Assembly: GCA_030737835.1 (NCBI GenBank)
Contig: CM060855.1
Coordinates: 13,363,927 to 13,427,926, forward strand
Length of the DNA stretch: 64,000 bases
Reading direction: 5' to 3'
Source of the DNA: Acorus gramineus
Lineage: Eukaryota > Streptophyta > Magnoliopsida > Acorales > Acoraceae
Shown: piece after piece, positions 16,701 to 34,139 of the stretch
How positions within the stretch are numbered: position 1 is the first letter of the stretch
Layout: each line of letters begins with the position of its first letter
Position numbers and translations under genes: made by a program
Notes under the pieces: model-generated
The model's input: the letters and a program-made list of their open reading frames with translations, nothing else
What the model was told of the DNA's origin: nothing
The model's database searches: none

Positions 16701-19700
16701 TTGGAAGACACATTCGTTGCACGTGATCCAAATGCATCGACACACTCCGTGTGGAATTAGCCATTGACACTTTGCGATATTGCTATGATCACCGCACTTA
16801 CGCCTCTTACAGAACCAAGCCACATCTAAAGAATTGAACATTGGTCTTTGTGGAGGCCTTTCACTAATCACCAACATTTGCAGCTATTTTTTATTGGGTT
16901 AGGTAAACTTTGCTGATCAGATTTCTTGTATGAAACCAGTCTAGAATTTAAGTTGGAAGGTATGGACTCAAGCTCATTATGAAATGGGACCAAATGATCA
17001 AAGATAAATAGTACAGCAACAAAATCCCTCTATACTAGAGTTCAATGTGATTCAAAATTTATTTTAGCAATATTACTACTGAATATGGTATTAATCATGT
17101 TTGATTTTGGATTACAAAAGCCGACTAAAATATCAGACTCTAAAATATAAAATTTAAAGATAATTTTTAGTTATGGAGCAGATAATTCATCAAGAATTTG
17201 ACGTGATTTGTGAGTTTCAGCCAATAAAGAGCCCCAGGTGAGTCGGCTATCAAATTAGTATATAATGATCAATAAGCACCAGGAGATACCCGTCTCTGGG
17301 ACAATTTTTTTTTATATAATTTATTTTGGAGGGAAAAAGAAAAATTTGGGACAAATGTTGATAAGCATACAAGTGTCATTAACCACTGTGACTTGAATTT
17401 TAAAAAGTCATTCAGGATCCACTCCAACAATATTATTGATATCAAATGACTGTCACCTGTAACTTATACAAGATCCTTATTTTTATCTAAGAATGTAATA
17501 CTTTCTCTTGTACACAATGGAACAAATACCCTTGGAATGCATGATTGATAATCAAATAAACTCCCTCTTAGAGTTTTGTCCATGACCATTTAAGAATCAA
17601 ATCTTAAATGTGGTGCCTTCTCCAGATTCCACATTTTTTTTACATTGATCACCTCCATTGCCTATTGCCCGTTTGTCTCATACCTTGTTTCGATTTTGCA
17701 GGGCTAGAGTTCACCAAACAACTAGATAACCCTACATCTACCACAAGATAATATATACTAATATACCATCATGTCACGAGATACAAAATCAGAGCAGGCC
17801 GATATGTAACCATTGTTATTCTAATCAGAAAATGAAAAGAAGACATAATTTGAGAACAAAGTCCTCAACATTGTTGGTGAAGGAGAGAAGTTTTTAGGAT
17901 AAATTAAATAAATTGAATGTCCTCAAGACTCCTCTGGTCCTCTATAATTGGGCTTGTCTCCAGTCACAATCTAAACAAAGTTTGACACAGTCAAACTGAG
18001 ATGGAGATAACCTTCAAGGAAGATTCCTAAATAGGTAAGGGTGTCAAACCTGTTAGAGATTTTTTAAAGTGTTTTCCAGGGAAAAACACGCTATAACAAC
18101 AATACTCAGAGAAGTATCATGGGCCACTACAAAGCATGGGGATTCACATTTTGGATGAAAGAGGATGGGAGGTTCAATATTGATTATGCCTTTTTTTTGG
18201 TTCAGTGTTGTGAGTTTGGAGCTTTTAGATTTTGTTGATACAAGGAAGAAATAGTAGAATTATTATAAAGGGAGACATCTCTGCCTCCTCCTATGGAAAA
18301 GGATGGTGTCACCCATTGTATTAAACTGGAAATACTACAGAGAACAGAGAAAAAAAGAAAGAAGATAGAAACAGGGGAGGTCATAAGAAACGTCCCCAAC
18401 CCTATGTCCAGGATACGAGGGGAGACATCATCTGTTCATTACCTTGGGCATTTACCAAGTAATAAATCTGATGGACTTCTGACATTTTCTTCAAGGAAAA
18501 ATGATATTTTACTGAATAGGTCTTCAAGTGAATACTGAAAATCAGCAAATGCCTTCAAGATTCAGAAAATATAGACAACCCCGTACAACAAAAATGCATA
18601 ATTCTCTAAGCCTTATAATATGATGGTTGTAGAACACAACTTAAAATAACTTTCTATAAAAACCAAATTGCCCTTGAAATGCATTAATTTTAATACCAGA
18701 GCTCCACTTTTCTAAACCAAGCATCACCATTGCCTGAAACAAACAAACTCAAACACCATTGTTCCAGATCTCAATCTACTAGCAGCAAAACCACCTACAT
18801 ATATGATAACTTACTATGCACGGACATTTCAAATGACATAAATTCTCGAAAGCAAAACCCCTACTAACATTAGACCACGAAACTCTCAAAGCCAAATTTG
18901 GTCATCCAATTCACAATCAGAAGGAAGCCCCCTACCTGTTTCTATTAGGGTTTACCAACTGAAGTTTAACTCTGTAACTCAGTCACTGGATCATCCATTT
19001 GAATATCATCAAACAACACCAAAGCAGTACAAATCCAAGAAAGAATTTTCTTTCTCAATTTTAATTCGAATCCCATGAAATGTATTCACTAATTGTACTT
19101 CCCCAAAACCGCCATAATCAGACAAATAAAAACATAAAGCACCTGATTCAGCAAATCTGATTAAAGTGAAAAAAAAACCCCACCTCGACACATCGTGAGA
19201 GAACCTCCACCCATTCCCGTCTTCGTCCCCCCCGCTCTCGTTCGCCTCGATATCCGTGCCACCCGCCCCGCGACCTCCCTCCTCCTCCTCCGACCGCTGA
19301 ACTCCGCCGCTGCCGCCGCGGCGTTGGCCGTGAGCGTTCCTCCTGCGGTACTCGGCCCAGACGAGCGACACATGGACAAGGCACTGGAAGGCGTACCCGC
19401 ATATCCAGAGCCGGATCGGCGTGACCGGCCTCTCGCGCCCGCTGAGAGAGAGGACCACGACCGACGCAGCGGCGAAGGAGAGGTTCCAGAGGACGTCCAG
19501 CGCCACCACGGGCTTCGAGTATCCCCAATCGGCCCTCCTCTCGTCCAGCTGCAGCGCCGCCGTCTCCCTCATCATCATCTGAGGTCCCCTCCCCCTTCCC
19601 GACACCCTCCCCAGCACCGCCGACAGAGTCGCCGCCCCCGCCCTAGCCGTCGCGGGATCCGCCGGCCTTGGTGTCCGTTCCAGGAGTGGCTCCGAAGCTC

Positions 19701-19740
19701 CGTCGATTGTCGCCGGCGAAGTTGTCAGTGTCTCATCCAT
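10777..19740 (-). CDS. RING-H2 E3 ubiquitin ligase, membrane type (At1g12760/At1g63170/At4g11680-like), 5 exons
   Basis: A membrane-anchored ubiquitin ligase by family. Exons on the minus strand: 19740-19184, 14793-14674, 13523-13391, 13308-13147 and 10938-10777. The coding length is 1134 bp (377 aa), about family length (roughly 390-408 aa in Arabidopsis). The N-terminus is Ala/Pro/Arg-rich. The family block [20 protein letters not shown] lies at 58-77, followed by hydrophobic segments at about 78-100, 108-130, 195-214 and two in 227-268. The acidic/Gly-rich loop 140-175 is cytosolic or lumenal (unknown). The RING-H2 finger is complete: Cys326, Cys329, Cys344, His346, His349, Cys352, Cys363, Cys366. 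At the exon 3/4 junction I chose the acceptor giving [13 protein letters not shown], which matches the family. Exon 1 is far more GC-rich than the rest. Introns 1 (4390 bp) and 4 (2208 bp) are long and contain repeats. Substrate is unknown. Confidence 0.93.
11090..11310. repeat. Possible MITE-like remnant in RING intron 4
   Basis: This stretch contains phrases such as CCCGTTTGGAAATAGTTG and AGCTTTTGGTTTCGG, typical of the ends of plant hAT-type MITEs. A matching terminal inverted repeat could not be fixed, so the limits are approximate. Confidence 0.3.
12016..12042. promoter_or_regulatory. G-box and RY motif cluster in RING intron 4
   Basis: Two CACGTG G-box cores (both palindromic) alternate with CATGC/CATGCA RY-type motifs in about 25 bp, in the order GCATGCGCACGTG then CATGCACGTG. 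Such paired motifs are known binding sites for bZIP/bHLH and B3 factors in plants. Whether this intronic cluster works is unknown. Confidence 0.35.
13668..13957. mobile_element. hAT-like MITE in RING intron 2
   Basis: The element is about 290 bp with imperfect terminal inverted repeats. The left end reads AGGGTGTGTTTGGCAAC, and the complement of the right end reads AGGGTGCATTTGGAAAC. Inside are two direct partial repeats of AGC(T/A)GCCCTCATCATTA. It has no coding capacity. An exact 8-bp target duplication was not found, so it is probably old. Confidence 0.6.
14794..19183 (-). other. RING gene intron 1 (4.4 kb)
   Basis: This long intron holds A/T homopolymer tracts (for example 16387-16406), several short open stretches (15344-15730, 15980-16219, 18202-18399) without family resemblance, and a cysteine-rich minus-strand stretch at 16641-16877 discussed in findings. 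No transposon with clear ends was recognised. Confidence 0.6.
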
Positions 19741-19983
19741 TTTTCTTCTCCCTCTCTATCGAACGATTGATGTGTCTATCATCGCTTCGCTTCGACTTTC
19801 GGAGTGTGGATAGTAGAATGGTTGCTGGTTCGAGAGCAGCATAAAAAAATTCGGTCGTATTGTAAACCTTCTACGCTCGGGTATCTGTTTTCAGAGTCGA
19901 GTCTGTTGTCGGGTTCAACGATGGTAGTATAATCTCATACCAGAAAAATCGAAGGGTGGTATAAATAATCATTACAAAAGGCC

Positions 19984-20040
19984 GGCGGTTATTCCCACCA
20001 TCTGATTTATTATTCCCACTAACCAATATTACTTGAAAAA
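19984..20040. mobile_element. MULE-like terminus, left end only
   Basis: GGCGGTTATTCCCACC starts at 19984, 243 bp upstream of the RING gene ATG. It resembles the ends of the elements at 26191-26911 and about 33620-34139. I could not find a matching inverted right end within 1 kb, so this is either a broken copy or a chance similarity. Confidence 0.4.
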
Positions 20041-20339
20041 CATATGTGCTTTTTTCTTTTATTAAAAAGCATTAAATCTACTGTCCACACACTTTTCACC
20101 ACTTTGAAACAAATGAATATCTATCCAATCTCGTTGTCCAAAACAAAAAAATTTACATCACACCCACCCTTTCTCTCCCCGCTCTCGTGTTCTACTATCC
20201 ACGGTGGCTTATCAACATCCACAACCACCAAAGACACTCTAGCAACACTCCGACAAGAATGTCAATGCCCCTAGTTTAAAAAAAAAACTATCATGAAGAG
20301 GTGAAGGTTCATTCTTCATTTGGATTTTTGTTTTGGATT

Positions 20340-20735
20340 TCTTGTATTTCTCATGTGGCCTTGGTGATGGTTGTTTGTGCTGGTGGTTGTAGTGGTGATG
20401 GTATATCTTTGTTATTGTGATAGTTATGTTTGTGTTGGAGTTTATTTTGTTTGTGGTTGTGATGATGTTAAAGGTGGTTTTGTTGTTGGTGGTGATGGTA
20501 GTAATGTTATCTCGATGGTTATTTTGTTTGTGGTTGTGATGATGTTGAAGGTGGTTTTGTTGTTGGTAGTGATAGTAGTAATTTTGTCTCGATGGTGGTG
20601 ATGGGGTTGTGGGTTATTTGTTCTAGGGTTTATTGGGGTGGTGTATTGTTTGTGATGGTTGGGTGGTGGTGGTGGAGGAATGATGATGGTCAGGGTGGTG
20701 GTAATGGTGGTTGTGGTTGTAGTTGTCATAGTATT
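20340..20735. repeat. G/T-rich low-complexity tract with a 77-bp tandem duplication
   Basis: Degenerate GTG/GAT/GTT triplets run for about 400 bp. Within them a 77-bp unit is present twice, at 20444-20520 and 20521-20597, with only a few differences. Open frames on both strands here (Thr/Ile-rich on minus, Val-rich on plus) are products of base composition and not credible genes. Confidence 0.8.
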
Positions 20736-22053
20736 TTTTTAGTATAAGTTCTCTCTAAAAGCAACGAATTCGGGAGAATGAGCAATCCATTTGGCCGATT
20801 CCTCGAGAGTGGAGGACAACCGCCATCTTCGGTAAACAAATAGTGTCTTTGCTTTCTTCTCTTCTTTTTTCTTCAACTAATGTCGCCTTTCCTCTTTCGG
20901 TATACTCTTCAGACAAGAAGAACAAATTGCCAGATGGGCAATCATTGATGATATTGACATTGAAAGGGCAAAACTACATCCTTTTCGAAACTAGGTCTCG
21001 CTTCTTAGCCTCATAGAGAGAGGAAAAAGAAGTCGCCCAAAACTGGGACTTCCAGTTAACATGTGACTTTCAATCTTACCCTCCCATTTGTTATTTTTTT
21101 AAAGTTTGATTTTTTTATTCCTCTCTTTTTTCCTTCCTTTTTTTTGGCACCCCTTTCTAGGTTAGGAGGTTTGGAAAATGCGTGAAGAAGAAGAAGACGA
21201 AGGTCCCAAGGATAACCCTGTTGCGGAGTTCTGATAAGCTATTGCTTAGATGCCAGGGTTAGTAGCTGGTCAGAGGCGGGAGACCTGGCCTCATTTGACG
21301 CACCTACCAAAGCCATCCTAGCCCCATGGCTAGTTTTTCCATGCCCGGCACAGAGGAAATCAAGCCCTTTGTGACAATCCCATATGGAGCATGGAGACAT
21401 TGTTCATTAATGCCGGATCGACCACTACCATTGCCAAGGGCTTTGGGAATGTAATAGTTGCGGAGTTCGTTAGGGACAAACAAAAAAATTCAACAATCAT
21501 TGAAGATGTTGAGAGGTCTTTGGATAAAATCTTTTAAATATTTTAATCCACCATCTTCTTTCTTTCTTTCTTTTTTAAATTCTATATTGCTCAGTGATAT
21601 TAGAGATTTCTTAATATTAACATAATTTGAAATCAAATATTTTCACGAAATAGATAGAAAAATCAATATTTGACTATTTCACAGACTAATAAAACACTCA
21701 ATATGTCTCTAACGCGCCACGTTGTTAGATTTTTTTTCTTCTTAAATTATGCTTTCTAAGAGTTATTTTATTTAATATGTTTTTAAAAGAAATGCTAATA
21801 AGAGAAACATGGTGCAAGACATTGAATGAAGAGTGGATATAATTCCACCACTAGATGCAAATAGGCAATAAATATTTGAAATTTATTATCAAAATTTAGA
21901 TACCATGATAAAAAGAAATCTAACCATTTGCACTCTCAAACATCAGTCTCGACTGATTGAGCAAATAAGACTTCTATACAGCAATAAAGTATTTCTATAC
22001 AACAACGTAAAGCATACATATAGTTTTTTTTCTTCCAAAACTGCAAGTCTATA

Positions 22054-25000
22054 TCAGTCATCTATGCTTCCTTCTGTCCTAATTGCAAAGTGGTGCACCA
22101 AAGACTTGGACCTCAAATCCTTCTCAAAGAATGCTCCCAAGAATTCGGTCATTGTGAAGTCACGGTACCGAGCAGGCTTATCATGTGAAACCAGTTCTGG
22201 TAGAGGCCCGTAAAGATCAGTCTCCCCTCTTCTCCCTGGATTGAAGAACACGGCGATGGAGATTCTTGGTTCTTTAGAAGGGTTTGCCAAAACTCGGTGT
22301 GCCACACTATTGTACTCATCATTGGACATGATCTGATGTCGATCATAAACATACCAAATTCAGTGCAAATTTAATTAGATGTGTCATTTGGAATAATGCC
22401 AGTTTAAGACTACACACAGGCTTCTCATGTTATATAACAGCAATCTAACTAGTGAAAAACATGATTGTGCTTCATGGACATGAAGGCTAATCTACATTAT
22501 TTTCCACTCCAGGAGAAACAAAAAAGGTGTACTGAGCATGGATCCATGAACAATCTAGGTAGTATAATAATATGATCTATGCCTTTGCATTACAAATGAG
22601 ATGCACTCATGCACCTAATTACTCGTTTGAAAAAAAAATGGAGAATGACAATGGAGAAAATACTTTAGAAATGTAAGATGGAACAAGGCAGAAGTAAATG
22701 GGAAATGCTAATATAGATACTCCTGTGATGCTCATAAATATAGAATGTACTATGCAGAGATGCAAATTAGGCTACGGAATGGATTGCATGTAACTTTTTA
22801 CATTTGTCAAGATATGTCAACTTGCAAGAATGTATATATATATATTTTTTTTGGGGGGGTACAAGAATGTACAAGTTATATTTATTAAACATTCAAACAA
22901 TACACTGTAGTTCCAACACAATGGATTTAATGTTTTTCTATTAGTAAATGCATATGCTAAGGAATGTTCTTCTCTTTCAATTCAGATAGGTGTTTGAAGT
23001 TTTCCAAAAGACGCAGATAGGTAAGCAATTAATCAAATAAAATAAACATAAAAAATCGTGCATGAATTTGTGGAATATTCAATAGATATTATGTTGGAAA
23101 ATGAATAAGTGTCAGAGTGAGAATAGGTGGCCTAACACGATTTTGACTCTCATTTGAGTAGTTAGGAGAATGAAGATATGCATCAGATATTTATCTTGAT
23201 TTAGATGCTAATTTACATGATATTTTGGATATTACCAAGTAATCCTCTACATTAATTCTGTGTTCTGGAACACTAACCCATGCACCAAACTTTGTTGGTG
23301 AGGTTTTAAGGATCGTCTTTATCTATGTTTAGACTCCTACATAATGAAGTTCACCCTGTGCTCCCTTCAATTTTCCCAATCAGCATGCACTCAAAGTGAG
23401 TGGATCTTAGTATGGGTTTAACTACACCAGCTAGAACCAATATTGCATCACATGGGTTGGTCAATTATTTTGTTAGTTGGACAAGAGTAAAGATTTGACT
23501 CTCCTCTTCGGCCAAAAACTTGCTTTCTTAGTCAGATGTAAGAGGTACAACTTGTGAGGAATTTTCCCACCTATAAAGCATCGTCTTTTGGCAAAGATTG
23601 TGTTAATTGAAAAAATTTCCATATACTGTACATTGAAATTTTCTATATAAATAATCCAAACTCTAACTAATAAAAACAAATTTTAATACTATTACACATA
23701 ACAAAAATAGACAAATTCAATTAATGTGAACTGTTGAATGGCGCTGATGTTTTTTTTATTGTGTGGAAAACACACAGGATTCAATTGTGTTTTCATAGAG
23801 CATGGTATTACATATCCTGGAAGCTGATTCGTGCAGGATTTCAGGGACGGGGAGTTTCTATGTAGAGTGAGATTGTAATATGGACCTGGGAGGCTGTGGG
23901 ACGTTCCTTATGGCTATTCTTTAAAAAAAATCTGGCTTCACTTTGGAAGTTTCAAATAAACAATGATTCAAACAAAGTGAAATGGTTGTCCTACATGAAG
24001 TCTTAACTATACTACATGTCAATGGTTAATAACATAGGAATAACTTAAACACAACCACCAAAAGAAAGTTCCTTTGATCTGTAATTTCACGAGGCATGAC
24101 GAGTCCAGGACTCCCTGACCATTTCAATCTCACCAATGGAAATACTTACAGGCAGAAATGCTAATAGGTTTAGTTTGCTTGGATCCATATCCCATCCAGG
24201 GGACCCTTCATGTAATCTATGTGTAACACAGTCGTCTCCCAAACCCACACCCTCTCGCAGATTAGACTCACTTTCATGCAATTGACATGCATAAGATGAC
24301 CAACCAGTTATGATCTATATGGAACATGCTAGCTTGAATTTCTTTTCAAGTCACTCTGTTTAATTATGTAGTTGTTCTCTTCATTACACTACACAAATAA
24401 CATCAGCTTTTAGTTGTTCATAATCAATAGGATTTGATCATCAGATGACCATCCAGTTGGACCACAGGGATTGATCACATTCCATTGTGATGACTTTTTC
24501 TGTTGGACCAGTTCAAATCCAATGCATGGTAGTTAGATAGTCAATTGGCATGCAATCAGGCCCCCAAAAAAATAGTATTTTTGGATAGGCCAATTAGAGG
24601 ATGATGAAACACAAACTTCTTAACATTGGTTGATCAAAAAATGATTTTCTATAGGTTTGCCAGTGAGGATGCTAAAATAATGCCATCAACCTGTATGGGA
24701 CATTCAGACCAATGCCCAAAGTATAAATTAACCTATATCCAGAATTCCAGATAACTAGAGCGATTCTTGAAATGCCCATGCAACCACAAACAATGGGAGG
24801 TTTTGCGTCAACAGAACAATATGTGTTTTAACTAGATTGACGTCTACTTTTGAACACATGAAATAACTAGACTATTCCATAAACTCTAAAACAATTAAAA
24901 GCGAGTTTGACTGGAAGTTATTACTGAATCTCTATAAAGATTTCAACTCAAGATTTCAATTGCTAAATAGAAGTTCAGCCACTATCACTCTACAAATATC

Positions 25001-25960
25001 AACATAGTAAAACAAAAAAAATGCAAAGGATTAAGTAAATTCAATTTCAAACATAAATGCATAAATTCAATGCATTCTTGCATCCATTGTAAACACAAAT
25101 CCAAACAAACACAAAGAACCCTTGAAGTTCAAAAACAGTACCTGCAAAAGATCGCCAACATTGATGACGATGGACCCGGGCACAGGCTTCACATCCACCC
25201 ACACATCCTCCCCCTCCATCTCCACCTTCACCTGAAGCCCCCCCACCATGTCCTGCAACAACACCGTCAGCACCCCAGGATCCGTGTGTCCGGCGAGCCC
25301 GACCGTCAGATCGGGCTGAGGACAGTACGGATAATAGTGAGCCACCATAACCCTCCCCTGTAGACAACTCATCTCCTTGATCCTCTCATGCCCTAACCCT
25401 AGCCCCTCCGACAGAAGCCCCATCAGCCTCTCCCCGAGCGCCATCGCTTGCCCGTCCCAATCGAGAAGCTCCTCCCGGCAGACCGAGGGGATCTTCTCCG
25501 ACTCGACCGGGACCGGACCCACCAGCATCTGGATCGTGTCGCGCCAGCTGGCGGCCTCGGACCTGTACAGATCGACGTTGGTGGAGAAGGTGACGCTCGC
25601 CTTCGGGTCCCTCGTGTAGTACTTCGATTTGGCCTCTGTTGGGAGTTCGTTGAAGGATCGGACGGCGGAGATGGTGCGGTCGAGGACGGATTGGGGGATG
25701 CCGTGGTGGACGACGTTGAAGAAGCCCCAGTTGCGGGAGGCGTCGCGGATGAGATCGACGAGAGTAGGGTGGGGGAGGGAGAGGTCGATGGTGGGGATGG
25801 AGAGTTGGTGGGGGTGGTGGGTTTTGGAGGGGAGGTTGTGGGATGGGTGGTGGAAGATGCGGGGGATGGTGGCGGAGCCGGCGTCGACGAGGCCCTTGAC
25901 GCCGATCTTGGACTCGTCGAATTCTTTGACTTCCCTCGCTCGGTCGTACGACGTCGTCAT
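22054..25960 (-). CDS. 2-oxoglutarate/Fe(II) dioxygenase, ACC oxidase homolog 1-like (copy 1)
   Basis: A soluble 2OG/Fe(II)-dependent oxygenase of the 1-aminocyclopropane-1-carboxylate oxidase homolog group (At1g06620-like). Despite the name, these are not true ACC oxidases and most substrates are unknown. Two exons on minus: 25960-25142 and 22332-22054, joined in phase 0 across a 2809-bp intron; the product is 365 aa, normal for the group. The DIOX_N domain spans about 54-165, including the IPTIDLS motif and GFFNVVHHGIP. The oxygenase core follows, with iron ligands His225, Asp227 (GHTDPGVLTVLLQD) and His285 (AHRVLANP), and the 2OG-binding pair Arg296 and Ser298 (RISIAVF). All catalytic residues are present, so it looks functional. 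The family's usual NHG is HHG here. Exon 1 is GC-rich, unlike its AT-rich intron. It lies tandem and same-strand to copy 2 at 31949-33402. A Pack-MULE sits 231 bp upstream of the ATG. Confidence 0.94.
22333..25141 (-). other. Intron of dioxygenase copy 1 (2.8 kb)
   Basis: This is AT-rich intronic DNA with short T and G runs (22840-22860). The tandem paralogue's intron at the same place is only 326 bp, so about 2.5 kb was gained here or lost there. I recognised no transposon with clear ends inside it. Confidence 0.6.
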
Positions 25961-26190
25961 GAACGGACCTGATTGGCGGCGGTTCGGGATTTTGAAATGA
26001 TGAAGAGTGGACGTTTTTGATGAGGGACCTGAGAGGTTGAAGATGCAATGATTTCTCGGTTGATCTTATCTTATGCATAGTTTTGCTATTGTTTTCGTGT
26101 TTCTTTGAACCGACGCCGACGACTTCTTGCAAGTGTTGGAATTTGGAAACACGCATGCTACGTCATGGACAATTTTTTTTCTTTTTTATA

Positions 26191-26911
26191 GGGGCCGTTA
26201 TTTCCACCTCTGTATTTATCTGATCCACCCCATTATCTTACTCACCCCTTTAATGTAATAAAAAATGGCATGGCACCTGCAAACCCACCCCTCTCAAAAC
26301 CCATTTCTCTCTCCTTCATCTTTCTTCCTCGACTACCTACCTGAGTTCTCAGAACATTTCTTGGAGCTTGAACACCACCTACTGGTCTGGGATGATCACA
26401 TGATCGTTTGTGATTGTGAAGTCATGCATCATCGTCACTGTTCAAGAGGGACATGCATGGTGTCGAAAAGACGAAGTGCGCCAGAGGGTCTTTTGGAGTG
26501 GAAGAGGCAATGGAGGAGGGTGTTGTAGGAGCAGGCGTCGGAGGAGGGGATGTCGTCGAGGAGGTCGAGGGAGAGGTCGGGGAGGTGGACGCGGAGGTAG
26601 GAGGAGGGAGCTGTAGGGACGGAGGGAGGGCGTTTATGCGATGGGGGGCGGAGTGGGCTGCGTAGATGTGGTTGAAGTGGGAGTGGATGGCGATGAGGGT
26701 GTCGTGGAATGCAGGATCAGGTTGGATGTCGATGGTAGCGACGATGACGGACTCGGCGCAGTCAAAGTTGTAACATGGCCCGCACTTGCAGAGGGACCAG
26801 TAAGTTGGAGTGGGTTCCAACGGGGGTGGGTTTTGTCTCGGTAAAAAATTTAAAATTTGAATTTTTGAAGGGGTGTGTAGAGTAACTAAAGGGGTGGAAA
26901 TAACGGCCTCT
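26191..26911 (-). mobile_element. Pack-MULE-type element carrying a PPR gene fragment
   Basis: A 721-bp element flanked by 9-bp direct repeats TTTTTTATA (26182-26190 and 26912-26920), the target size usual for Mutator-like elements. The ends are inverted: GGGCCGTTATTTCCACC on the left, GAGGCCGTTATTTCCACC on the complement of the right. It has no transposase. The interior is GC-rich and exon-like, unlike its surroundings. On the minus strand at about 26638-26435 one frame reads DLLDDIPSSDACSYNTLLHC followed by an ALRLFDTM motif, which fits a pentatricopeptide repeat (PPR). A neighbouring frame further upstream (about 26800-26640) is also open, so the captured piece seems frameshifted. It lies in the promoter region of dioxygenase copy 1, opposite in position to a transcription unit but with the captured strand the same as the gene. 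The transposon call is strong; the PPR identity is moderate. Confidence 0.75.
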
Positions 26912-27169
26912 TTTTTTATACACCCAATCCCGAGAATCAGACGACAAATCATGTATAGTTATTTTATTCAAGAAAAATTGATATTACTCTTCTACAAATC
27001 AGTTAAATCGGCTTTAATCTTTATAAAATTAAAAAATTATCATATATCTTAAAAAGAATATGCATTTTCCTTATAAAATATGAAAAATTAGATTTAGTGC
27101 ATTTGATAACAAAACTGCTCTTACATTTTTTTTAAAATTCTCCTATTATCATATACTCTCCAAAGGTAT

Positions 27170-27222
27170 AAAAAAAAAAAAAAAAAAAGAGGGAGGGGGG
27201 ACAATATATATATATAACTTCC
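27170..27222. repeat. Poly-A run with an AT dinucleotide tail
   Basis: A run of about 18 A residues, then GAGGGAGGGGGGAC and a short (AT)n. This is a simple sequence, possibly the tail of an old retroposon, but no body was recognised. Confidence 0.5.
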
Positions 27223-27508
27223 TCGAAACTTATGACCATTGAAAAATGTCCATATAAAATCAGTAAGTCCCCTTGAAGACAACTACAAATCTAGTTAGTA
27301 TATTACAGTAATTTATTAAGTAAATTTTAAAAGGGTATTACAGTAATTTATTATGAATGGTTAAATATCAATCATAGATCTGGTTAATTTTAGTTATGAC
27401 AAGGACTAAAATAAATATTGTATAATAAGATAGGGATCTGAGGGGATTTATCGATTTTATAGCGACCATTTCAGTTTTCATAAGTTTCTAGGAAGATATA
27501 TCAATTTT
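27222..27508. mobile_element. Small MITE with inverted ends
   Basis: About 287 bp. The left end contains ACTTCCTCGAAACTTATGA, and the complement of the right end contains TCTTCCTAGAAACTTATGA. It has no coding capacity. A related end in the same orientation lies near 29578, which suggests a local family. Target duplication is unclear. Confidence 0.5.
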
Positions 27509-27721
27509 TCAAACATAAGGGATGAGGGCATTCTGATAACTTTTAATGTGTAGTTAGGGTTAATCATGTTCATGTAACTAATTAGTTGGGGTGAGGATAT
27601 GGAGTAAAAAGATATTTTTCTAATAACATGAGAACCTGTGATGATTTTACAATTTTATATGGACTAAAACCAATTTAAATACCTTTTACGGAGTTGTATC
27701 GATTTTTCCCTTTTTTATTAG

Positions 27722-29043
27722 GGTTAAAGACATCTAAGTCCCTACAAACATGGAAAAACCCATATAAGTCCCTACTAAAATTGAGATAGACATACGAGTC
27801 CCTCAAAACTAAAAAAAACCCAATTATCATCCCTGAGTTAAATTTTCATCCAAACTTAACGGAATATTCCTGGAATATTCCATCACATATAATTGTGTAG
27901 ACATTGAAGTCCTTATAAACAGTCATAAAGACAAATTAGTCCATACAAAAGATAAAATTACCCTTGAAAGACTTTTACATTAAATTGTATACACATTGCA
28001 GTCCCTATAAACAATCATAAAGACAAATTAGTCCCTGCAAAAGATAAAATTGCCCTTGAAAGATTTTTACATTTAATTGAATAGACATTACAGTCCTTAT
28101 AAATAATCGTAAAGACAAATTGGTCCCTGTAAAAGACAAAAATGCCCCTGAAGGATTTTTACATTTAATTGTTTAAACATTACAGTCCTTATAAATAATT
28201 ATAAAGATAAATAATATAATTTTATTATTTATAATATAATTTTATTATTTATTCTTTCATCTTTTATCCTATTGCTTACACTCCACCTGAACAAGTAATG
28301 AATAATCCTATTTTATTTAAGGCGTTTGCTTGCTTTGAAATACCTATACATGATTTTCCATAAAATTTGTTTATTTACATTCCTGGCAGAGAGAATTTTA
28401 ATAAACTCATGCCACTTTTTTTACTTCCCTACAAACAAAAAGGTAAAAAGAATGCATTCTACCGGTTAAAATATTTTTTTTACATCCAAATTGAGATCTT
28501 TAGGTGGAGTGTGAGCGATAGGATAGAAGATGAAAAGAAAAAAAAATTATATTATTTGTCTTTATGATTGTTTATAAGGACTGCAATGTCTACACAATTA
28601 AATGTAAAAATCCTTTAGGGGTATTTTTGTCTTTTACATGGATCAATTTGTCTTTACGATTGTTTATAAGGACTGTAATGTCTATTCGATTAAATGTAAA
28701 AGTTTTTCAGGCCCAATTTTGTTTTTGTAGGGACTAATTTGTCTTTATGATTGTTTATAGGGACTGCAATGTGTACACAATTTAATGTAAAAGTCTTTCA
28801 GGGGCAATTTTATCTTTTGCAGGGACTAAGTTGTTTTTAAAACTGTTTATAAAGACTTCAATGTCTACACAATTATATGTGATGGAATATTATGAGAATA
28901 TTCCGTTAAGTTTGGATGAAAATTTAACTCAGGGATGATAATTGGGTTTTTCTGAGTTTTCAGGGACTCGTATATCTGTCCCAATTAAAGTAGAGACTTA
29001 TATGAATTTTTTCATATTTATAAGGACTTAGATGTCTTTAACC
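27722..29043. mobile_element. Foldback-type element with about 480-bp inverted arms and 92-bp subrepeats
   Basis: The left arm (27722 to about 28200) and right arm (about 28560 to 29043) are inverted copies beginning GGTTAAAGACATCTAAGTCC. Each arm carries about three to four tandem units of 92 bp. On the left, the ACATT(G/A) landmark recurs at 27901, 27993, 28085 and 28177, exactly 92 bp apart. The central 360 bp is AT-rich and non-coding. The arms can pair into a very long hairpin. The element resembles foldback or long-TIR MULE derivatives. Flanks are AT-rich and a clean target duplication is not resolved (TTTTTATTA left against TTTTTAATTA right). It lies between the two dioxygenase genes. 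Confidence 0.8.
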
Positions 29044-29519
29044 TTTTTAATTAATGTTATATGTATTTTAAATATATTTTAAAAAAATCATTCATTACAA
29101 CTCAAATTTTTTTTTGTGTAATATATAACAATTTTAATCTCTTTTAAAATTTATTTAATAAATTACTATAATATATAACAATTTTTTGAGTGAGGTGTAT
29201 ACCTTTTGTGTTAAATTGTTTGAAAAATAATGTGTCATTTTGAGATGTATCATTTTACTATTTACAAGTTCGAGCTATGGGTGGAATTATCCAACTTCAA
29301 CATCAAAGACAGAAATGATGAAGGAAATCCAACTTGGCAAGGTGTCACTTCCTCGTGTGAAGGGAAACTTATGAAAATCAGAAAAAATTCTTATAAAATT
29401 ATAAAAAATTCTTATAAAATTGATAAATTATCTCATGTATCTATCTTATTAAATAATATTTATTTTAATTTCTATCAAAATCAAAACTAATCAGATGTAT
29501 GGTTAACCCTAATAATGCA

Positions 29520-30180
29520 TAGTAAATTACTATTATACCCTTTAAAAAATTATTTTCTTTCTTGAAACAAATTTGATATAACTTCCTGAAAACTTATGAA
29601 ATAGAAAAAGTTCATGTAAAATTTAAAAATCATTTTAACTCTCTGAAATTTGCTTAACATCACAAAAAGTCCCTATGATTTATCTAAAAGTATATATTGA
29701 TTTATTTAAATTTTATCTAACAAATTATATTTTTGTTGATCAACGTTTTATGCTTTTTGTTGCTATTAATTTTGAGTTGAAATGTATTATAGAATTTTGA
29801 TTTGGTTTTTAAATTGTTTTATCTGATTGTGTAATGGAGTTGATGAAACTGTAATTTTTTTTGTTCAGTCTTTGTAGTGGGATTGAAGATGTGAAATTGT
29901 CAAAAAAAAGACTAGATTTTGTAGATCAAAGATGTTCAACGACTATTTTTTTATAGTTGAAGATGACATTTCAGGAGATGTGGTTGTTGAATAATGACAA
30001 AGGTATTTTCGTTTTACAAAAGGACTAAATATGATATTATAAAGTTTGTAGGGACTGAATCCGATTTTAATAAGTTTATGAGAACTTATTTCGATATATT
30101 TTTTATCAGGGGATGAAATTTGTTAACCATGTACATTTTATGGGACCTAAGATGATTTTTTTATTTTACATAGATTTTTT
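29520..30180. repeat. Diverged MITE-like sequence (AGTCCCT type)
   Basis: Phrases such as ACTTCCTGAAAACTTATGA (near 29581) and AAAAGTCCCTATGATTT, with inverted-looking partners near 30050-30100, resemble the small MITE at 27222-27508 and the foldback arms. The exact limits could not be set. Confidence 0.35.
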
Positions 30181-30319
30181 ATGATTTAAGGATATTTCAA
30201 AGAGTTAAGATTTTTTTTTTTTTTTAATCGATTCTCTCTCACCCAAATTCTAACATGTTCTATCTTAAAGTATTTAAGAATATAATATGACTATATTTTC
30301 TATAAAAAAAAAAGAAAGA

Positions 30320-30332
30320 GAGAGAGAGAGAG
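30320..30332. repeat. (AG)n microsatellite
   Basis: A short GA dinucleotide run just left of the GC-rich block that carries the 56-bp minisatellite. Confidence 0.8.
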
Positions 30333-30406
30333 GTTGCGGGCTTAGGAGTCAGGGGTTCGGAGACTCTGTGGAGTATCCACAGAGAAAGCCTGTGTAACTC
30401 GCGTGG

Positions 30407-30856
30407 ATGGGCGACGCGTGGAGTATGGATCACGTGATCTCACGTGAACGACTTGTCAAAACAGAGAAAGCCTCGTTGACGCCGTTAGCTCATTTTCCCC
30501 ATCTCTCTGTGGTTCCCCTCTCCCATCGTCACAGAGAAACCCTCACCGAAGCCTTGCCGCACCCTCGCCGATCTCCGCCACCTCGTGTCGTGTCTCCCTC
30601 ACCGAAGCCCCGCCGCACCCTCGCCGATCTCCGCCACCTCGTGTCGTGTCTCCCTCACCAAAGCACCGCCGCACCCTTGCCGATCTCCGCCACCTCGTGT
30701 CGTGTCTCCCTCACCGAAGCCCCACCGCACCCTCGCCGATCTCCGCCACCTCGTGTCGTGTCTCCCTCACCGAAGCCCCGCCGCACCCTCGCCGATCTCC
30801 CGTGGTCCTACAGCCACCTCGTGAGTTTCTCATTTTTTTTATTTTTTGTAATTTGA
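30407..30856 (+). other. GC-rich block open in several frames; not a convincing gene
   Basis: An open frame of 149 codons starts at 30407 and is Pro/Arg/Ser-rich. Its openness comes from the 56-bp minisatellite inside it, which also keeps the other two forward frames open. After it, CTCGTGAGTTTC at about 30818 looks like a splice donor, and the block with its surroundings resembles a 5' untranslated exon (CT-rich, followed by an AT-rich intron-like stretch). I cannot connect it to a downstream coding exon. It could be a relic of a captured or lost gene 5' end. Confidence 0.35.
30542..30808. repeat. 56-bp minisatellite, about 4.8 copies
   Basis: The unit begins CTCACCGAAGCC and recurs at 30542, 30598, 30654, 30710 and 30766, exactly 56 bp apart with few differences. 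Each unit contains CGCCACCTCGTGTCGTGTC. Because 56 is not a multiple of three, each copy is read in a new frame, and three copies (168 bp) restore it. Confidence 0.92.
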
Positions 30857-31867
30857 ATGTAGTTCTGTCTTGATTGTTTAGGTTCTGATATGGATTTCAG
30901 TGGTTTTCATTTGATTATTTGAATGGGTTTGTTTCATATATGAGGTTTGAGTGGATTTGATTCTGATATCTGAATGGGTTAATTTCAGATATGGGTTTGA
31001 GTGGATTTCATTTCCAACACTTCAAAATCCTACTGTTTTTTTTTTTTTTTTGCATCAAACCCATATTTGAAGTCCTGGTAGTTCAATGAGAATGTATATA
31101 TAATGTATAAAAAAAAGTTGTGACTTCTACCTTTAACTCAACACAATAATGAAATTAAGCTCCTAAGTATGTAGCAACTCAGAAATTTTTTTAAATCCCA
31201 TACTGACCTACTACAAACTCTACTGCGGTGGGGGGAGTGATATAATGGATTGTATATATTCAGAATGAAATATACTGGTTCTGTGGAAAATTTTTAAGGG
31301 AAATATGCATATGCACAAATTTTTAAAACCATGATAAGTTGCTTGTGATCCATACATATTTAGTCATCTTGTGTTGTTGTCTTGTGAATCCTTTCCTTCC
31401 AGTTGTCTTGTTAAATGTTCTAAATTATGTTTTCTTCTTATAGGTGAACACTGAGTTGTTATGGAAATTATAATAAAGACCAGATCAAATGCTTTCAGAT
31501 TTAACATCTAGCACAAATTCTATAAAAATTTTTATAACAAAAGCAAAACAAGGGAGGAGAACACGAATACAAAATTCTATTTTAGGTAGAGAAAAAAAAA
31601 AGCCGCTGAAGCTATGAGCAGAAGCTACAGACTGATCACATATATTTTTTCACCATGTAATGCAAAAGAGCAATTGAAATATATTGAAATTTTCAAAATA
31701 ACAAACCATATTTTATAAAATCATCTTACATCAACAACAATCATAATAGACTTCTTGATTATAGAGAGAAGTTCCCATCATGGGCATATATAACACCTAT
31801 AAGATGGGCCTGATATCATTATTGAAACAACATATACCACCCTCCACTCCCACCACCACCACACACA

Positions 31868-31869
31868 CC

Positions 31870-31904
<35 letters not shown>

Positions 31905-31929
31905 ACGACAACGACAACGACAACGACAA
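31868..31929. repeat. Compound microsatellite (CT)n(CA)n(ACGACA)n
   Basis: Adjacent runs of CT, CA and the six-base ACGACA lie 20-80 bp beyond the stop codon of dioxygenase copy 2, so probably within its 3' untranslated region. Such tracts are expected to vary in length between individuals. Confidence 0.9.
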
Positions 31930-31948
31930 ATCTACATATACAAATGCA

Positions 31949-33402
31949 TCACAAATCATTCCTGCTTCCTCCTCCCCTGATTCCAAAGTGACGTACCAGA
32001 ATGTTGGACTCTAATCCCTTGCTATAGAAAGCTTTGACGAATTCAGTCATTGTAAATTCACGGTAGAGAGCGGGTTTATCAGGTGCAATCAGCTCCGGTA
32101 GAGGCCCGTAGAGATCAGACTCACCCTTCCTCCCAGGAGTGAAGAAAGCAGCTATGGAGATTCGCGGTTCTCTGTAAGGGTTCGCCAGAACTCTGTGCTC
32201 CGCGCCCTTGTACTCGTCGTTGGATATGATCTGATGACAACCACACACACACACACACACACAATTAAAAAGAAAGATCCGAGGAATGAAGTTTACATAA
32301 ATTCATTTGGGATTCTAATCGAAGACACTGCGTTCCTGTTATATTCCCATGACAGAAATTCGATGTGGAATATTCATTTCAATTCTAATCTCAATTTAGC
32401 CTTCACTATAATAATAATAATAAAAAAAAAAACCTTTTCAAAAATTGAGTTTAAAACACAAAAACATTGTTTTAAAAACCAGCATCACATGGGACCATTA
32501 AATATCAACACAATTTTTTCCCTTGCAAAAATTAAGATAAGAATGCATATGCATACCCTCATAAGATCCCCCAAATTGATAACAAGTGATCCAGGCACAG
32601 GCCTCACATCCACCCAAACTTCCTCCCCATCCCCATCACCGCCGTCCGTTGTTGGCGCCTTCACCTGCAACCCCCCAATATGATCCTGCAACAACACAGT
32701 CAAAACCCCACCGTCCGTGTGCCCAGCGAGCCCCATCGTCAGATCTGGCTCCGGACAATACGGATAATAGTGACCCACCAAGTTCCTCCCTTCATGACAC
32801 GTCATCTCCTTCAGCCTCTCAGCCCCCACTCCAAGCCCCTCCGACAGCAGCCCCATCAGCCTCTCCCCCAATCCCGCCACGTGCGCCCCCCACGTGAGAA
32901 GCCCCTCCCTGCAGACCTCGGGAAGCCGACCCGGGTCCAACGGAACCGGGCCCACCTTCACCTGCATCGTGTCCCGCCAGGTGGCGGCCTCGGATTCGTG
33001 GAGGTCGTAGTTGGTGTTGAAGATGACATCCGACGTGGTGTCCCTCGAGTAGTACTTCGACTTGGTCTCCGTGGGGAGCTCGTTGAAGGATCGGACGGCG
33101 GAGAGGGAGCGATCGAGGACGGATTGGGGGATGCCGTGGTTGGTGACGTTGAAGAAGCCCCAGGTGCGGGAGGCGTCGCGGATGAGGTGGACGAGGGTGG
33201 GGTGGGGGAGGGAGAGGTCGATGGTGGGGATAGAGAGTTGGTGGGGGTGGTGGGTTTTGGAGGGGAGGTTGTGGGAGGGGTGGTGGAAGAAGCGGGGGAT
33301 GGTGGTGGCGCCGGCGTCGATGAGGCCTTTCACGCCGATCTTGGAGTCGTCGAACTTCTTGACCTCGCTCGCTCGGTCGTATGTGGATGCCATCATCATC
33401 AA
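31949..33402 (-). CDS. 2-oxoglutarate/Fe(II) dioxygenase, ACC oxidase homolog 1-like (copy 2)
   Basis: Tandem paralogue of the gene at 22054-25960, same strand and same intron position. Exons on minus: 33402-32557 and 32230-31949, phase 0, intron only 326 bp; the product is 375 aa. Four ATGs in a row open the frame (33402, 33399, 33396, 33393); the family-like N-terminus MASTYDR starts at the fourth, so the true start may be 33393. The iron ligands are His228, Asp230 (GHTDGGVLTVLLQD) and His294 (EHRVLANP); the 2OG-binding residues are Arg305 and Ser307. GFFNVTNHGIP is canonical. Relative to copy 1 it has an added Gly/Asp-rich loop (about 250-261) before VWVDV. Exon 1 is GC-rich. A TATA box lies about 60 bp upstream. 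The substrate is unknown; the family includes enzymes acting on small specialised metabolites, which is knowledge of the family and not evidence here. Confidence 0.95.
32239..32262. repeat. (CA)n microsatellite in the intron of dioxygenase copy 2
   Basis: An uninterrupted CA run lies directly next to the 3' splice site of the intron (complement GTGTGTGTG just before the CATCAG acceptor). Its length could influence splicing, which is inference only. Confidence 0.9.
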
Positions 33403-33426
33403 AACAGAGAGAGCCCCAGTGAGACT

Positions 33427-33445
33427 TTTTTTTTTTTTTTTTTTT
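33427..33445. repeat. Poly-T run in the 5' leader of dioxygenase copy 2
   Basis: About 19 T residues on the plus strand (poly-A in the transcript sense) lie between the TATA box and the start codon. Confidence 0.85.
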
Positions 33446-33463
33446 GGGATCTACATTACTGCA

Positions 33464-33471
33464 TTTATATA
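33464..33471 (-). promoter_or_regulatory. TATA box of dioxygenase copy 2
   Basis: On the minus strand TATATAAA lies about 62 bp upstream of the first ATG. Transcription would be expected to start roughly 30 bp downstream, giving a short leader of about 30 nt that includes part of the poly-A tract. Confidence 0.6.
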
Positions 33472-33591
33472 ATACTTTTACTATGGGCAGCCGACATAGA
33501 TTAGAACTTGGTGGTCAAAGTTTCATTAGATAAGGTATGTGACTATGGATAACGTTTATTTCAAATCCATCAATTTTTTCACTCATCTCTT

Positions 33592-33626
33592 AAATTTATT
33601 TATTTATTTATTTATTTATTTTTGGT
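33592..33626. repeat. (ATTT)n microsatellite
   Basis: About eight tandem ATTT units, at the left edge of the MULE-like element. Confidence 0.9.
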
Positions 33627-34139
33627 TATTTTAACCCACGCCTGACCAATGAAGCATCTATGAGGGTCGCTCGTAAAAGAGTGGTGGACAATGTCGTCTC
33701 TGATGGGGGAGGACGAGGTCACTGTCGCCGCAGCCCACCCCCATCAACGCCACCAACCACCAAACACCTCTCAATCTGCTCCTTGAGAGGACCCGCCTCC
33801 CTCAACTCTCCCTGCAACGTCTCGTCGTTACCTCCACCTTCAACAATCTCTGCTCCTGCTCCTCCTGCTCTGTCAGCGGTGAGGCCGTCCACCGCTGCCT
33901 CCTCTCCACCTCCCCCTTCGTCGTCGATCAGGTGGTCTGAGAGCTCTACTGCCTCCATCTTCAACAACTTCCACTCCTCCTCCTCCTCCCCTGTCGGCGG
34001 CGACGCCGTCCACTACGCCTTCGCGAGCGACCCCTTGTGGATGCTCCGCTGGTCGGGAGTGAGTTAGGATAAAAAAAAAAAAAAAAAATTTAAGGGGTGG
34101 GTGGAGAAGTTGACGGGGTTGAAATAACCGCCCCCAACG
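33620..34139 (+). mobile_element. MULE-like element with a GC-rich captured-looking interior
   Basis: The right end (complement GGGGGCGGTTATTTCAACCCC) is well preserved. The left end is a weaker match (GGTTATTTTAACCC at about 33624). The subterminal C-rich phrase CCACCCCTT is shared with the Pack-MULE at 26191-26911. The interior is GC-rich and exon-like with a 135-codon open stretch on plus (33660-34067), Ser/Pro-rich; another frame contains SGEAVHRCLL and SPFVVDQVV. I do not recognise the source gene; a PPR-like origin is only a guess. It lies about 215 bp upstream of the dioxygenase copy 2 ATG. Confidence 0.5.

Follow-up and report, generated by a model that had tools for sequence, protein, structure and literature searches.

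Three neighbouring genes of Acorus gramineus, a RING-type gene and two dioxygenases, have a transposon end close upstream, and the locus raises the question whether one Mutator-like (MULE) family has struck the same promoter zone three times, as an earlier note on this DNA had proposed, and whether such elements have a regulatory role in common. Within the window, i.e. the whole stretch of 64,000 nucleotides that was analysed, the distance between element and ATG is 150-245 bp at all three genes, and every element is upstream of coding sequence.

The core motif CGGTTATTTCAACCC occurs seven times in the window at up to three mismatches, whereas 100 shuffles gave a mean of 1.58 and none reached seven. 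Across the 398.6-Mb genome 81 exact cores were found and none of the reversed control; by a count from the genome core listing, 15 pairs face each other with 355-869 bp between the cores. The ends of two subfamilies, A and B, are conserved over about 50 bp in inverted orientation, i.e. terminal inverted repeats (TIRs) are present, and as the subfamily-B profile also matches A ends (E down to 4.7e-10) the two subfamilies are related. Among 36 complete copies the median length is 537 bp, two body types are common to copies and the mean body GC content is 0.588 as against 0.326 in the 1-kb flanks.

Target-site duplications (TSDs) of 9 bp with at most one mismatch were present in 28 of these 36 copies (13 perfect, ends allowed to move by one base), while eight had none by the same one-mismatch measure; in the control only 0.71% of 1260 mismatched flank pairs reached one mismatch or fewer at 9 bp and none was perfect. 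With one mismatch allowed and ends shiftable by one base, the number of copies that scored (n = 36) was 29 for a length of 8 bp, 28 for 9 bp, 15 for 10 bp and 3 for 11 bp. Perfect duplications numbered 5, 8 and 0 at 8, 9 and 10 bp with fixed ends, and 20, 13 and 2 with the one-base shift. The 36 copies were taken from 45 fetched subfamily-A loci, omitting L046, L053, L054 and L060 as well as L016, L018, L021, L045 and L066, which have one end only. Five subfamily-B pairs were inspected: L034 and L035 have perfect 9-bp duplications, L036 a perfect 10-bp one, and L033 and L032 have one and two mismatches, respectively, at 9 bp. Membership of the hAT superfamily, prompted by a possible 8-bp duplication at element 2, was dropped on account of the 9-bp family signal. 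At locus L066, on C7 near 4.115 Mb, an open frame encoding the MULE transposase domain PF10551 (E 1.2e-23) lies about 0.9 kb inward of an A/B-type end; this is the sole transposase-bearing locus, and a second end was not found within the 7.8 kb covered. The inverted-repeat ends, the 9-bp duplications of the families and a transposase domain near a similar end in a longer locus support the MULE identity proposed earlier for the two dioxygenase elements, which belong to non-autonomous Mutator-like families.

The first exon of dioxygenase 1 (25141..25960, minus strand, ATG at 25960, 3' limit approximate) encodes DIOX_N (E 8.7e-17) and 2OG-FeII_Oxy (E 1.7e-21) domains. Element 2, with subfamily-B ends, occupies 26191..26911 and begins 231 bp from this ATG, just where a terminus had been placed before; both ends match the subfamily-B profile built with the window left out (E 8.6e-13 and 2.3e-9), and an inverted repeat was detected. 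The element is bounded on the forward strand by the duplication TTTTTTATA, on the left, gene-proximal side at 26182..26190 and on the right, distal side at 26912..26920, a perfect 9-bp match of a kind that T-rich flanks make easier. Its interior holds a captured fragment of a pentatricopeptide-repeat (PPR) gene at 26448..26798 (minus strand, the direction of dioxygenase 1), which is 77% identical (289/376 columns) to locus L037 at G000:C5:26722256-26722622, with E 1e-83 and 3.6e-78 in two comparisons; its PPR_2 match (E 3.2e-5) lies under the curated cut-off. The fragment matches a PPR gene located elsewhere in the genome, in the 5' part of that gene, and because a host-gene fragment with a parental copy elsewhere is thus enclosed, element 2, judged by its structure, is a Pack-MULE.

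Dioxygenase 2 likewise encodes DIOX_N (E 9.6e-18) and 2OG-FeII_Oxy (E 7.2e-18) in its first exon (32554..33399, minus strand, 3' limit approximate). The translation places its first in-frame ATG at 33399, not at 33402, and the nearby element is about 150 bp away instead of the 215 bp or so reported earlier. This element 3 is a decayed, MITE-like Mutator-like element with subfamily-A ends at about 33548..34135, the left boundary being an extrapolation of five bases beyond the profile match. Its right end (34135-34086) matches profile A at E 8.2e-17 and its left end (33553-33596) weakly, over 44 bp at E 6.4e-4. The left end formerly proposed near 33620 (33623..33637, forward strand) follows an ATTT microsatellite at 33594-33621 and scores 5.5 in nhmmer (E 0.97); it is a weak internal match and probably not the boundary, the better choice of left end being 33553. 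No duplication flanks the element when the left end is taken near 33620; the corrected end gives a candidate TSD of 8 matches in 9, read by eye and overlapping the repeat itself. The body matches 24 of the 36 complete family copies and has 94 genome matches, and three of its open frames have no Pfam match; the frames in the bodies of both elements gave no Pfam domain besides the PPR trace. The GC-rich body of element 3 is a repeated family body and not a private capture, although an ancient capture is possible.

Another reading gives these families a genome-wide preference for gene 5' ends, of which the window would be a display; the surroundings of 45 loci outside the window were examined for it. 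Such a preference agrees with maize Mu, which favours regions 5' of the ATG and near transcription starts (PMC2774946), and with rice MULEs, which are reported to bring GC-rich DNA into the 5' ends of genes (PMC4858842). Two sampled copies also fit it. At L023 the first ATG of a PPR frame is 157 bp away; at L015 a P450 has its probable ATG at a distance of 116 bp, this start (3633) being a reading of the hydrophobic N-terminus in a frame without Pfam match and the next candidate (3422) lying 327 bp away. Against it, only seven of the 45 loci have a detected gene within 1 kb, with four Pfam-supported gene starts and four gene ends, and at the other 38 no host gene was detected within that distance. 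A detected gene start within about 300 bp was present at only two or three of the 45, and the contrast of this count with the three window elements, drawn post hoc, speaks against the explanation preferred below. The distance at L021 is uncertain as its left end was not found, and the frame at L017 may be an internal exon, to judge from the E1-like family. The flanking frames were ordered with a codon score for which ten Pfam-supported frames of these loci served as training set. Candidates within 1.3 kb numbered 241 and came from 44 loci, L059 alone having none; 40 frames, picked by eye and some of them beyond 1.3 kb, were run against Pfam, a procedure that can overlook genes whose first exon is short. 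Some of the 45 loci are interdependent: L045 and L046 are 97% identical, and L053 and L054 have the same end layout. This test, a weak one, gives no clear preference for gene starts in the sampled copies, and we regard a family-wide 5' bias as unlikely. Of the proposed targeting of the 5' zone, the upstream position of the three window ends stands, while its extension to the family finds equal numbers of starts and ends.

The elements could also have been co-opted, supplying or replacing promoter or enhancer DNA of both dioxygenases and persisting upstream for that reason. The distances from ATG to element are about 150 and 231 bp. The best pointer to a possible regulatory role is the gene-side duplication of element 2, which reads TATAAAAAA on the minus strand towards dioxygenase 1 (26182-26190) and contains the one TATAWA motif seen in the scanned stretch of that promoter. 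Rice PsbS1 offers a precedent: a MULE lies 0.4 kb upstream of the gene, and this type of promoter had higher reporter activity (PMC4178011). At dioxygenase 2, however, the TATA-box-like motif TATATAAA (33464..33471, minus strand), 65-67 bp from the ATG, sits between element 3 and the gene, so that the core promoter need not derive from the element, and the two bodies have no common match beyond the ends; co-option of both elements appears rather improbable. As a bolder and quite speculative possibility, element 2 may have inserted into the dioxygenase 1 TATA box, its 9-bp duplication then re-creating a TATA box on the gene side. As element 3 sits just above the TATA motif of dioxygenase 2, members of one transposon group may have replaced the upstream control of each paralogue in separate events. 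If true, the insertion would have swapped everything upstream of the dioxygenase 1 core promoter while sparing the core, a simple route by which a transposon could replace upstream control and leave the core promoter intact.

The third gene shows whether a single family is involved. In the RING-type gene, the first coding exon (19012..19740, minus strand, ATG at 19740, its 3' limit being that of the open frame and not a mapped splice site) has a coding score of 18.7 and no Pfam match, and its search against PDB sequences returned one match at E 0.23. A zf-RING_2 domain (E 5.5e-13) lies on the same strand at about 10810-10941, and we infer that both belong to one gene. The element end upstream of it (19984..20130, forward strand) gave E 1.1 with profile A, which had suggested a chance match, and is absent from the profile B matches up to E 10. 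The chance reading was overturned by a genome search, in which alignments to three other places start at 19985-19987, and by a profile C from nine other loci with the window left out, which matches 19985-20054 at E 1e-10; the end is significant only with this profile and with a combined B+C profile (E 4.3e-6). By these profile comparisons it is a real end of a third family, C, weakly similar to A and B. The concern that the RING-gene terminus might be spurious is thereby removed, and of the claim that the same family lies at all three genes, the presence of an end upstream of each remains while the common family does not. No inverted partner with nine or fewer mismatches was found within 6 kb of the RING end, and in the nine family-C loci (1.8-2 kb each) the best inverted partners had at least eight mismatches in 22-24 bases, with no second end found; the right-hand regions of two of these loci, compared by eye, gave no duplication, and about 2 kb adjoining the RING end had no Pfam match in six frames at E 0.01. 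One could still place all three ends in one family, in which the RING end would have diverged strongly, as profile C is in register with many A/B ends from the first bases and the combined profile, which contains no window sequence, matches all three places. But the best E value of profile C on A/B ends is 0.012, profiles A and B fail on the RING end, and the combined match there is expected from a profile that contains family C, all of which leaves a single family improbable.

The dioxygenases themselves are 80.6% identical over 829 aligned columns of their coding exons, and their promoters have no match below E 0.02 except the element ends and poly-A/T runs; an empty site was sought in the paralogue promoters, which do not align. 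The bodies of elements 2 and 3 have no match in common beyond the ends, as the earlier note had observed of their interiors, of which that of element 3 turns out to be a repeated family body. The unmatched promoters and different bodies support the view that elements 2 and 3 are independent insertions, in keeping with the statement that they were not copied with the genes. Carriage along in the tandem duplication, suggested by an element in the same zone of both paralogues, deserves almost no credence, since the exons align so well, the promoters meet only through ends and poly-A/T runs at that limit and the bodies come from different groups.

The three-gene pattern looks like ordinary Mutator-type transposon litter and not like a shared switch, as the RING end comes from another family and the sampled copies have no clear preference for gene starts. 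Very probably, two independent and rather diverged non-autonomous MULE insertions from related subfamilies lie at the dioxygenases and an end of a different family at the RING gene. Element 2, a Pack-MULE with a PPR-gene fragment, and element 3, a copy of a repeated MITE-like body, would both have been mobilised in trans, presumably by a MULE transposase; their upstream position may reflect accessible chromatin at promoters, or the fact that insertions ahead of a gene are tolerated, and the three elements would have little or no regulatory role in common. Several observations count against this explanation: the weak left end of element 3 and its single imperfect TSD candidate, the eight complete copies that had no TSD at one mismatch, ends that are short beside the long TIRs described for most plant MULEs (PMC3310237), the second end not found at L066, and the closeness of all three window elements to an ATG. 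These results define a MULE subfamily pair in the Acorus gramineus genome with a clear Pack-MULE example, and correct the idea of one family striking three neighbouring promoters.

The elements resemble several known systems. Like the Pack-MULEs of rice and other plants, element 2 combines MULE-type ends, a 9-bp TSD, a host-gene fragment (from the 5' portion of a PPR gene) and a GC-rich interior, whereas element 3 and its relatives have common bodies in place of individual captures; for rice MULEs insertion at gene 5' ends is reported (PMC4858842), in contrast to the four starts and four ends at the loci sampled here. Mutator-derived MITEs are similar in the short median length of 537 bp, the conserved ends of about 50 bp, the two common body types and bodies which in elements 2 and 3 have no Pfam domain but the PPR trace, and differ in that the body here is strongly GC-rich (0.588 vs 0.326 in the flanks). 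Long TIRs are described for most plant MULEs (PMC3310237), as against about 50 bp in subfamilies A and B. Robertson's Mutator of maize (Mu/MuDR) has the same 9-bp TSD and inverted-repeat ends, and favours gene 5' ends; its ends, however, are about 215 bp (PMC2774946 for both points), and the likeness noted here is one of structure. Similar in situation is OsMULE-JSS at rice PsbS1, where a MULE likewise sits a short way upstream of a plant gene and has a possible TSD and TIR; for it promoter activity was measured (PMC4178011), while the elements of this locus are known from sequence alone.

The earlier note's observation, that three neighbouring genes each carry an end of one Mutator-like element (MULE) family shortly upstream of the ATG, was partly right. 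Ends of the related subfamilies A and B lie upstream of both dioxygenase genes, whereas the end upstream of the RING gene (ATG 19740, minus strand) scored E 1.1 with profile A at 19984 and was absent from the profile B matches up to E 10, so the claim of a shared family fails there. Each of the three proposed ends was examined by sequence search, with profiles made from copies lying outside the window, and for a partner end and a target-site duplication. The elements in the window belong to already known kinds, the members themselves being new.

Nor does the RING-gene end look like a chance match, as the earlier note had allowed. In a DNA search, the 156 bases around it matched three other places in the genome at 70-75% identity, each alignment beginning at 19985-19987, and profile C, built from nine such loci without the window, matched 19985-20054 at E 1e-10. 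Homology among these loci begins at the end and covers ~20 to 225 bases in most pairs, with longer shared sequence among L038, L040 and L042 and between L031 and L041. The end is genuine and belongs to a separate family, C, whose relation to A and B is weak at best (best E 0.012) despite similar outermost bases. A partner end was sought within 6 kb of it and in the nine family C loci, and none was found. The first exon of the RING gene has a strong coding score and no Pfam match; the RING-H2 domain on the same strand at ~10810-10941 (E 5.5e-13) is consistent with the name of the gene, while not proving a single transcript.

The window's 398.6-Mb genome is evidently that of a plant, to judge by its genes (2OG dioxygenases, PPR, F-box). 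The exact core, a short terminal sequence of subfamily A, occurred there in 81 copies (37 plus, 44 minus strand; reversed control 0). Counted by hand from the genome listing, 15 facing plus/minus pairs spaced 355-869 bp apart show the pattern of short inverted-repeat elements; with 51 unpaired ends this gives 66 loci, the window's own included, and 45 of the 65 outside the window were sampled for family analysis. The subfamily-A end is ~50 bp long, from GGGGGCGGTTATTTCAACCCC through CACCCACCCCTT (commonest bases, 37 ends). The subfamily-B pattern GGGCCGTTATTTCCACC was found at 111 places with at most one mismatch (control 0), and as profile B matched A ends with E-values down to 4.7e-10, the two subfamilies are related. 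At two places on C5 (L053:827-1962 and L054:797-1932), identical in their layout of ends, a subfamily-A element lies between left and right subfamily-B ends, an arrangement that resembles nesting within a B element. Loci L045 and L046, with 97% identity over 3.2 kb and a B-type end inside, are probably a duplicated segment carrying that end; ~570 bp adjoining the end of L016 is common to both. Beside the L016 end, an open frame (L016:3575-4111, minus strand) with a weak WAV3-like C-terminal domain match (E 1.6e-4, below cut-off) is perhaps a second gene capture.

Target-site duplications (TSDs) were counted in the 36 copies of subfamily A that have a single clear end per side, each end being allowed a one-base shift. 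Of these, 28 carry a 9-bp TSD with no more than one mismatch and 13 a perfect one, against 0.71% and none among 1260 mismatched flank pairs; at lengths of 7, 8, 9, 10 and 11 the copies with at most one mismatch numbered 30, 29, 28, 15 and 3. Five subfamily-B pairs comprised two perfect 9-bp TSDs, one perfect 10-bp TSD, one with a single mismatch and one with two. As a 9-bp TSD is that of Mutator elements, stated for maize Mu in PMC2774946, it supports placing both subfamilies among them. An open frame with the MULE transposase domain PF10551 (L066:289-999, minus strand, E 1.2e-23) lies ~0.9 kb inside an A/B-type end (L066, 1867-1930) and is followed on the same strand by a 397-residue frame without Pfam match (L069:3241-4431). 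As no second end was found in the L066/L069 region, this locus is a candidate source of transposase and a candidate autonomous or decayed autonomous element. The genome gave at least 150 PF10551 matches (150 of 1162 first-look candidates scored), so MULE transposases are common in it.

Element 2, upstream of dioxygenase 1 (ATG 25960), spans 26191-26911, with both ends significant with profile B and the TSD TTTTTTATA; as the element is flanked by T-rich sequence, such a match arises more readily than the control rate implies. Part of its interior is 77% identical to G000:C5:26722256-26722622 (E 3.6e-78; 1e-83 in a second search), a locus that on the minus strand, with stops read as X, encodes a PPR array (PPR_2 E 5.9e-60). 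The matched part, about RSLCRCGNLDRAESV to FDSMRVP, falls early in the open frame of that locus, a little behind a methionine at which translation probably begins. An open frame of element 2, read in the direction of dioxygenase 1, still gives a PPR match that falls short of the curated cut-off (E 3.2e-5), and further smaller matches elsewhere in the genome suggest a mosaic or PPR paralogues. By its structure, element 2 is a Pack-MULE.

Element 3, upstream of dioxygenase 2, has a right end at E 8.2e-17 with profile A. The left end at ~33620 proposed in the earlier note scored at noise level (E 0.97) and gave way to a 44-bp match at 33553 (E 6.4e-4, with high composition bias of 14.7 bits). Element 3 is thus ~588 bp long and starts ~150 bp from the first ATG (33399), rather than ~215 bp from 33402. 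Its left end includes seven ATTT units (33594-33621), perhaps grown from an AT-rich part of the inverted repeat. The interior had at least 94 genome matches, many of them coinciding with core matches (scored: 40 of 68 first-look candidates). It grouped with 24 of 36 complete copies; the other 12 are linked in a group of their own, and element 2 falls in neither. The two elements do differ in their GC-rich interiors, as had been noted, being in different groups; that of element 3, given its grouping and its many genome matches, is a family body. Interior GC averaged 0.588 against 0.326 in the 1-kb flanks and was higher in all 36 complete copies.

The view that the elements were not simply copied with the genes was supported: apart from the ends and poly-A/T runs, the dioxygenase promoters share nothing below E 0.02, against 80.6% identity of the coding exons, and the insertions therefore look independent of gene duplication. 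Between the dioxygenases, a long inverted repeat (27715-29050; 353-nt arms, 88% complementarity, more inverted repeats inside) is probably another foldback-type element. A GC-rich tandem repeat of 4.7 copies of a 56-base unit lies at 30540-30800.

Insertion bias was assessed at the 45 fetched loci from Pfam-supported host genes within 1 kb of the element, which were present at seven. Gene starts were those of a PPR gene (L023, first ATG 157 bp away), a P450 gene (L015, probable ATG at 116 bp), a DnaJ gene (L021, distance uncertain, left end missing) and a ThiF-type exon (L017, ~0.3 kb, possibly a later exon than the first). The gene ends were those of HSP20 (L012, 233 bp), PPR (L060, 449 bp), dirigent (L067, 723 bp) and a second P450 gene (L015, 552 bp). 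No host gene was detected within 1 kb at the other 38 loci (40 open frames run against Pfam), L066 with its transposase counted here. As starts and ends were equal, four against four, in a weak test (40 open frames, some more than 1.3 kb away, against 241 candidates within 1.3 kb; two locus pairs that look like duplicates), no family-wide 5' preference was seen, and the suggested 5' targeting is not supported beyond the window. A gene start lay within ~300 bp at 2 of 45 loci, or 3 including L017, where chance predicts ~1 at an assumed, typical number of 30,000 genes. Within the window, the gene-side ends of all three profile-found elements lie ~150-245 bp from an ATG, which is striking but was noticed post hoc, with one family group in just two of three. 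A fourth gene, with an F-box domain (open frame 37230-38381), has no A-type end near its start (nearest listed profile A match 38837, E 36) and no profile B or C match nearby up to E 10.

The gene-side TSD of element 2, read on the minus strand (26190 to 26182) as TATAAAAAA, contains a TATAWA motif 225 bp from the ATG, the sole one in the scanned dioxygenase 1 stretch. If it were a working TATA box, the insertion would have duplicated it and one copy been kept beside the gene; chance is an easy explanation, as target sites of the family are generally AT-rich (95 of 117 bases A or T in the 13 perfect TSDs). At dioxygenase 2, TATATAAA occupies 33464-33471, on the gene side of element 3 and 65-67 bp from the ATG, and the stretch scanned for the RING gene has no TATAWA motif.

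Ordinary insertions of non-autonomous MULEs, presumably mobilised in trans and retained owing to their position outside coding sequence, would most likely account for these elements. Their upstream location is unsurprising, since maize Mu favours gene 5' ends (PMC2774946) and rice MULEs are reported to take up GC-rich sequence and to integrate at the 5' ends of genes (PMC4858842). As promoters can sit in MULE ends (PMC3310237) and the rice PsbS1 promoter bearing a MULE showed higher reporter activity (PMC4178011), a regulatory effect on the window genes is possible.
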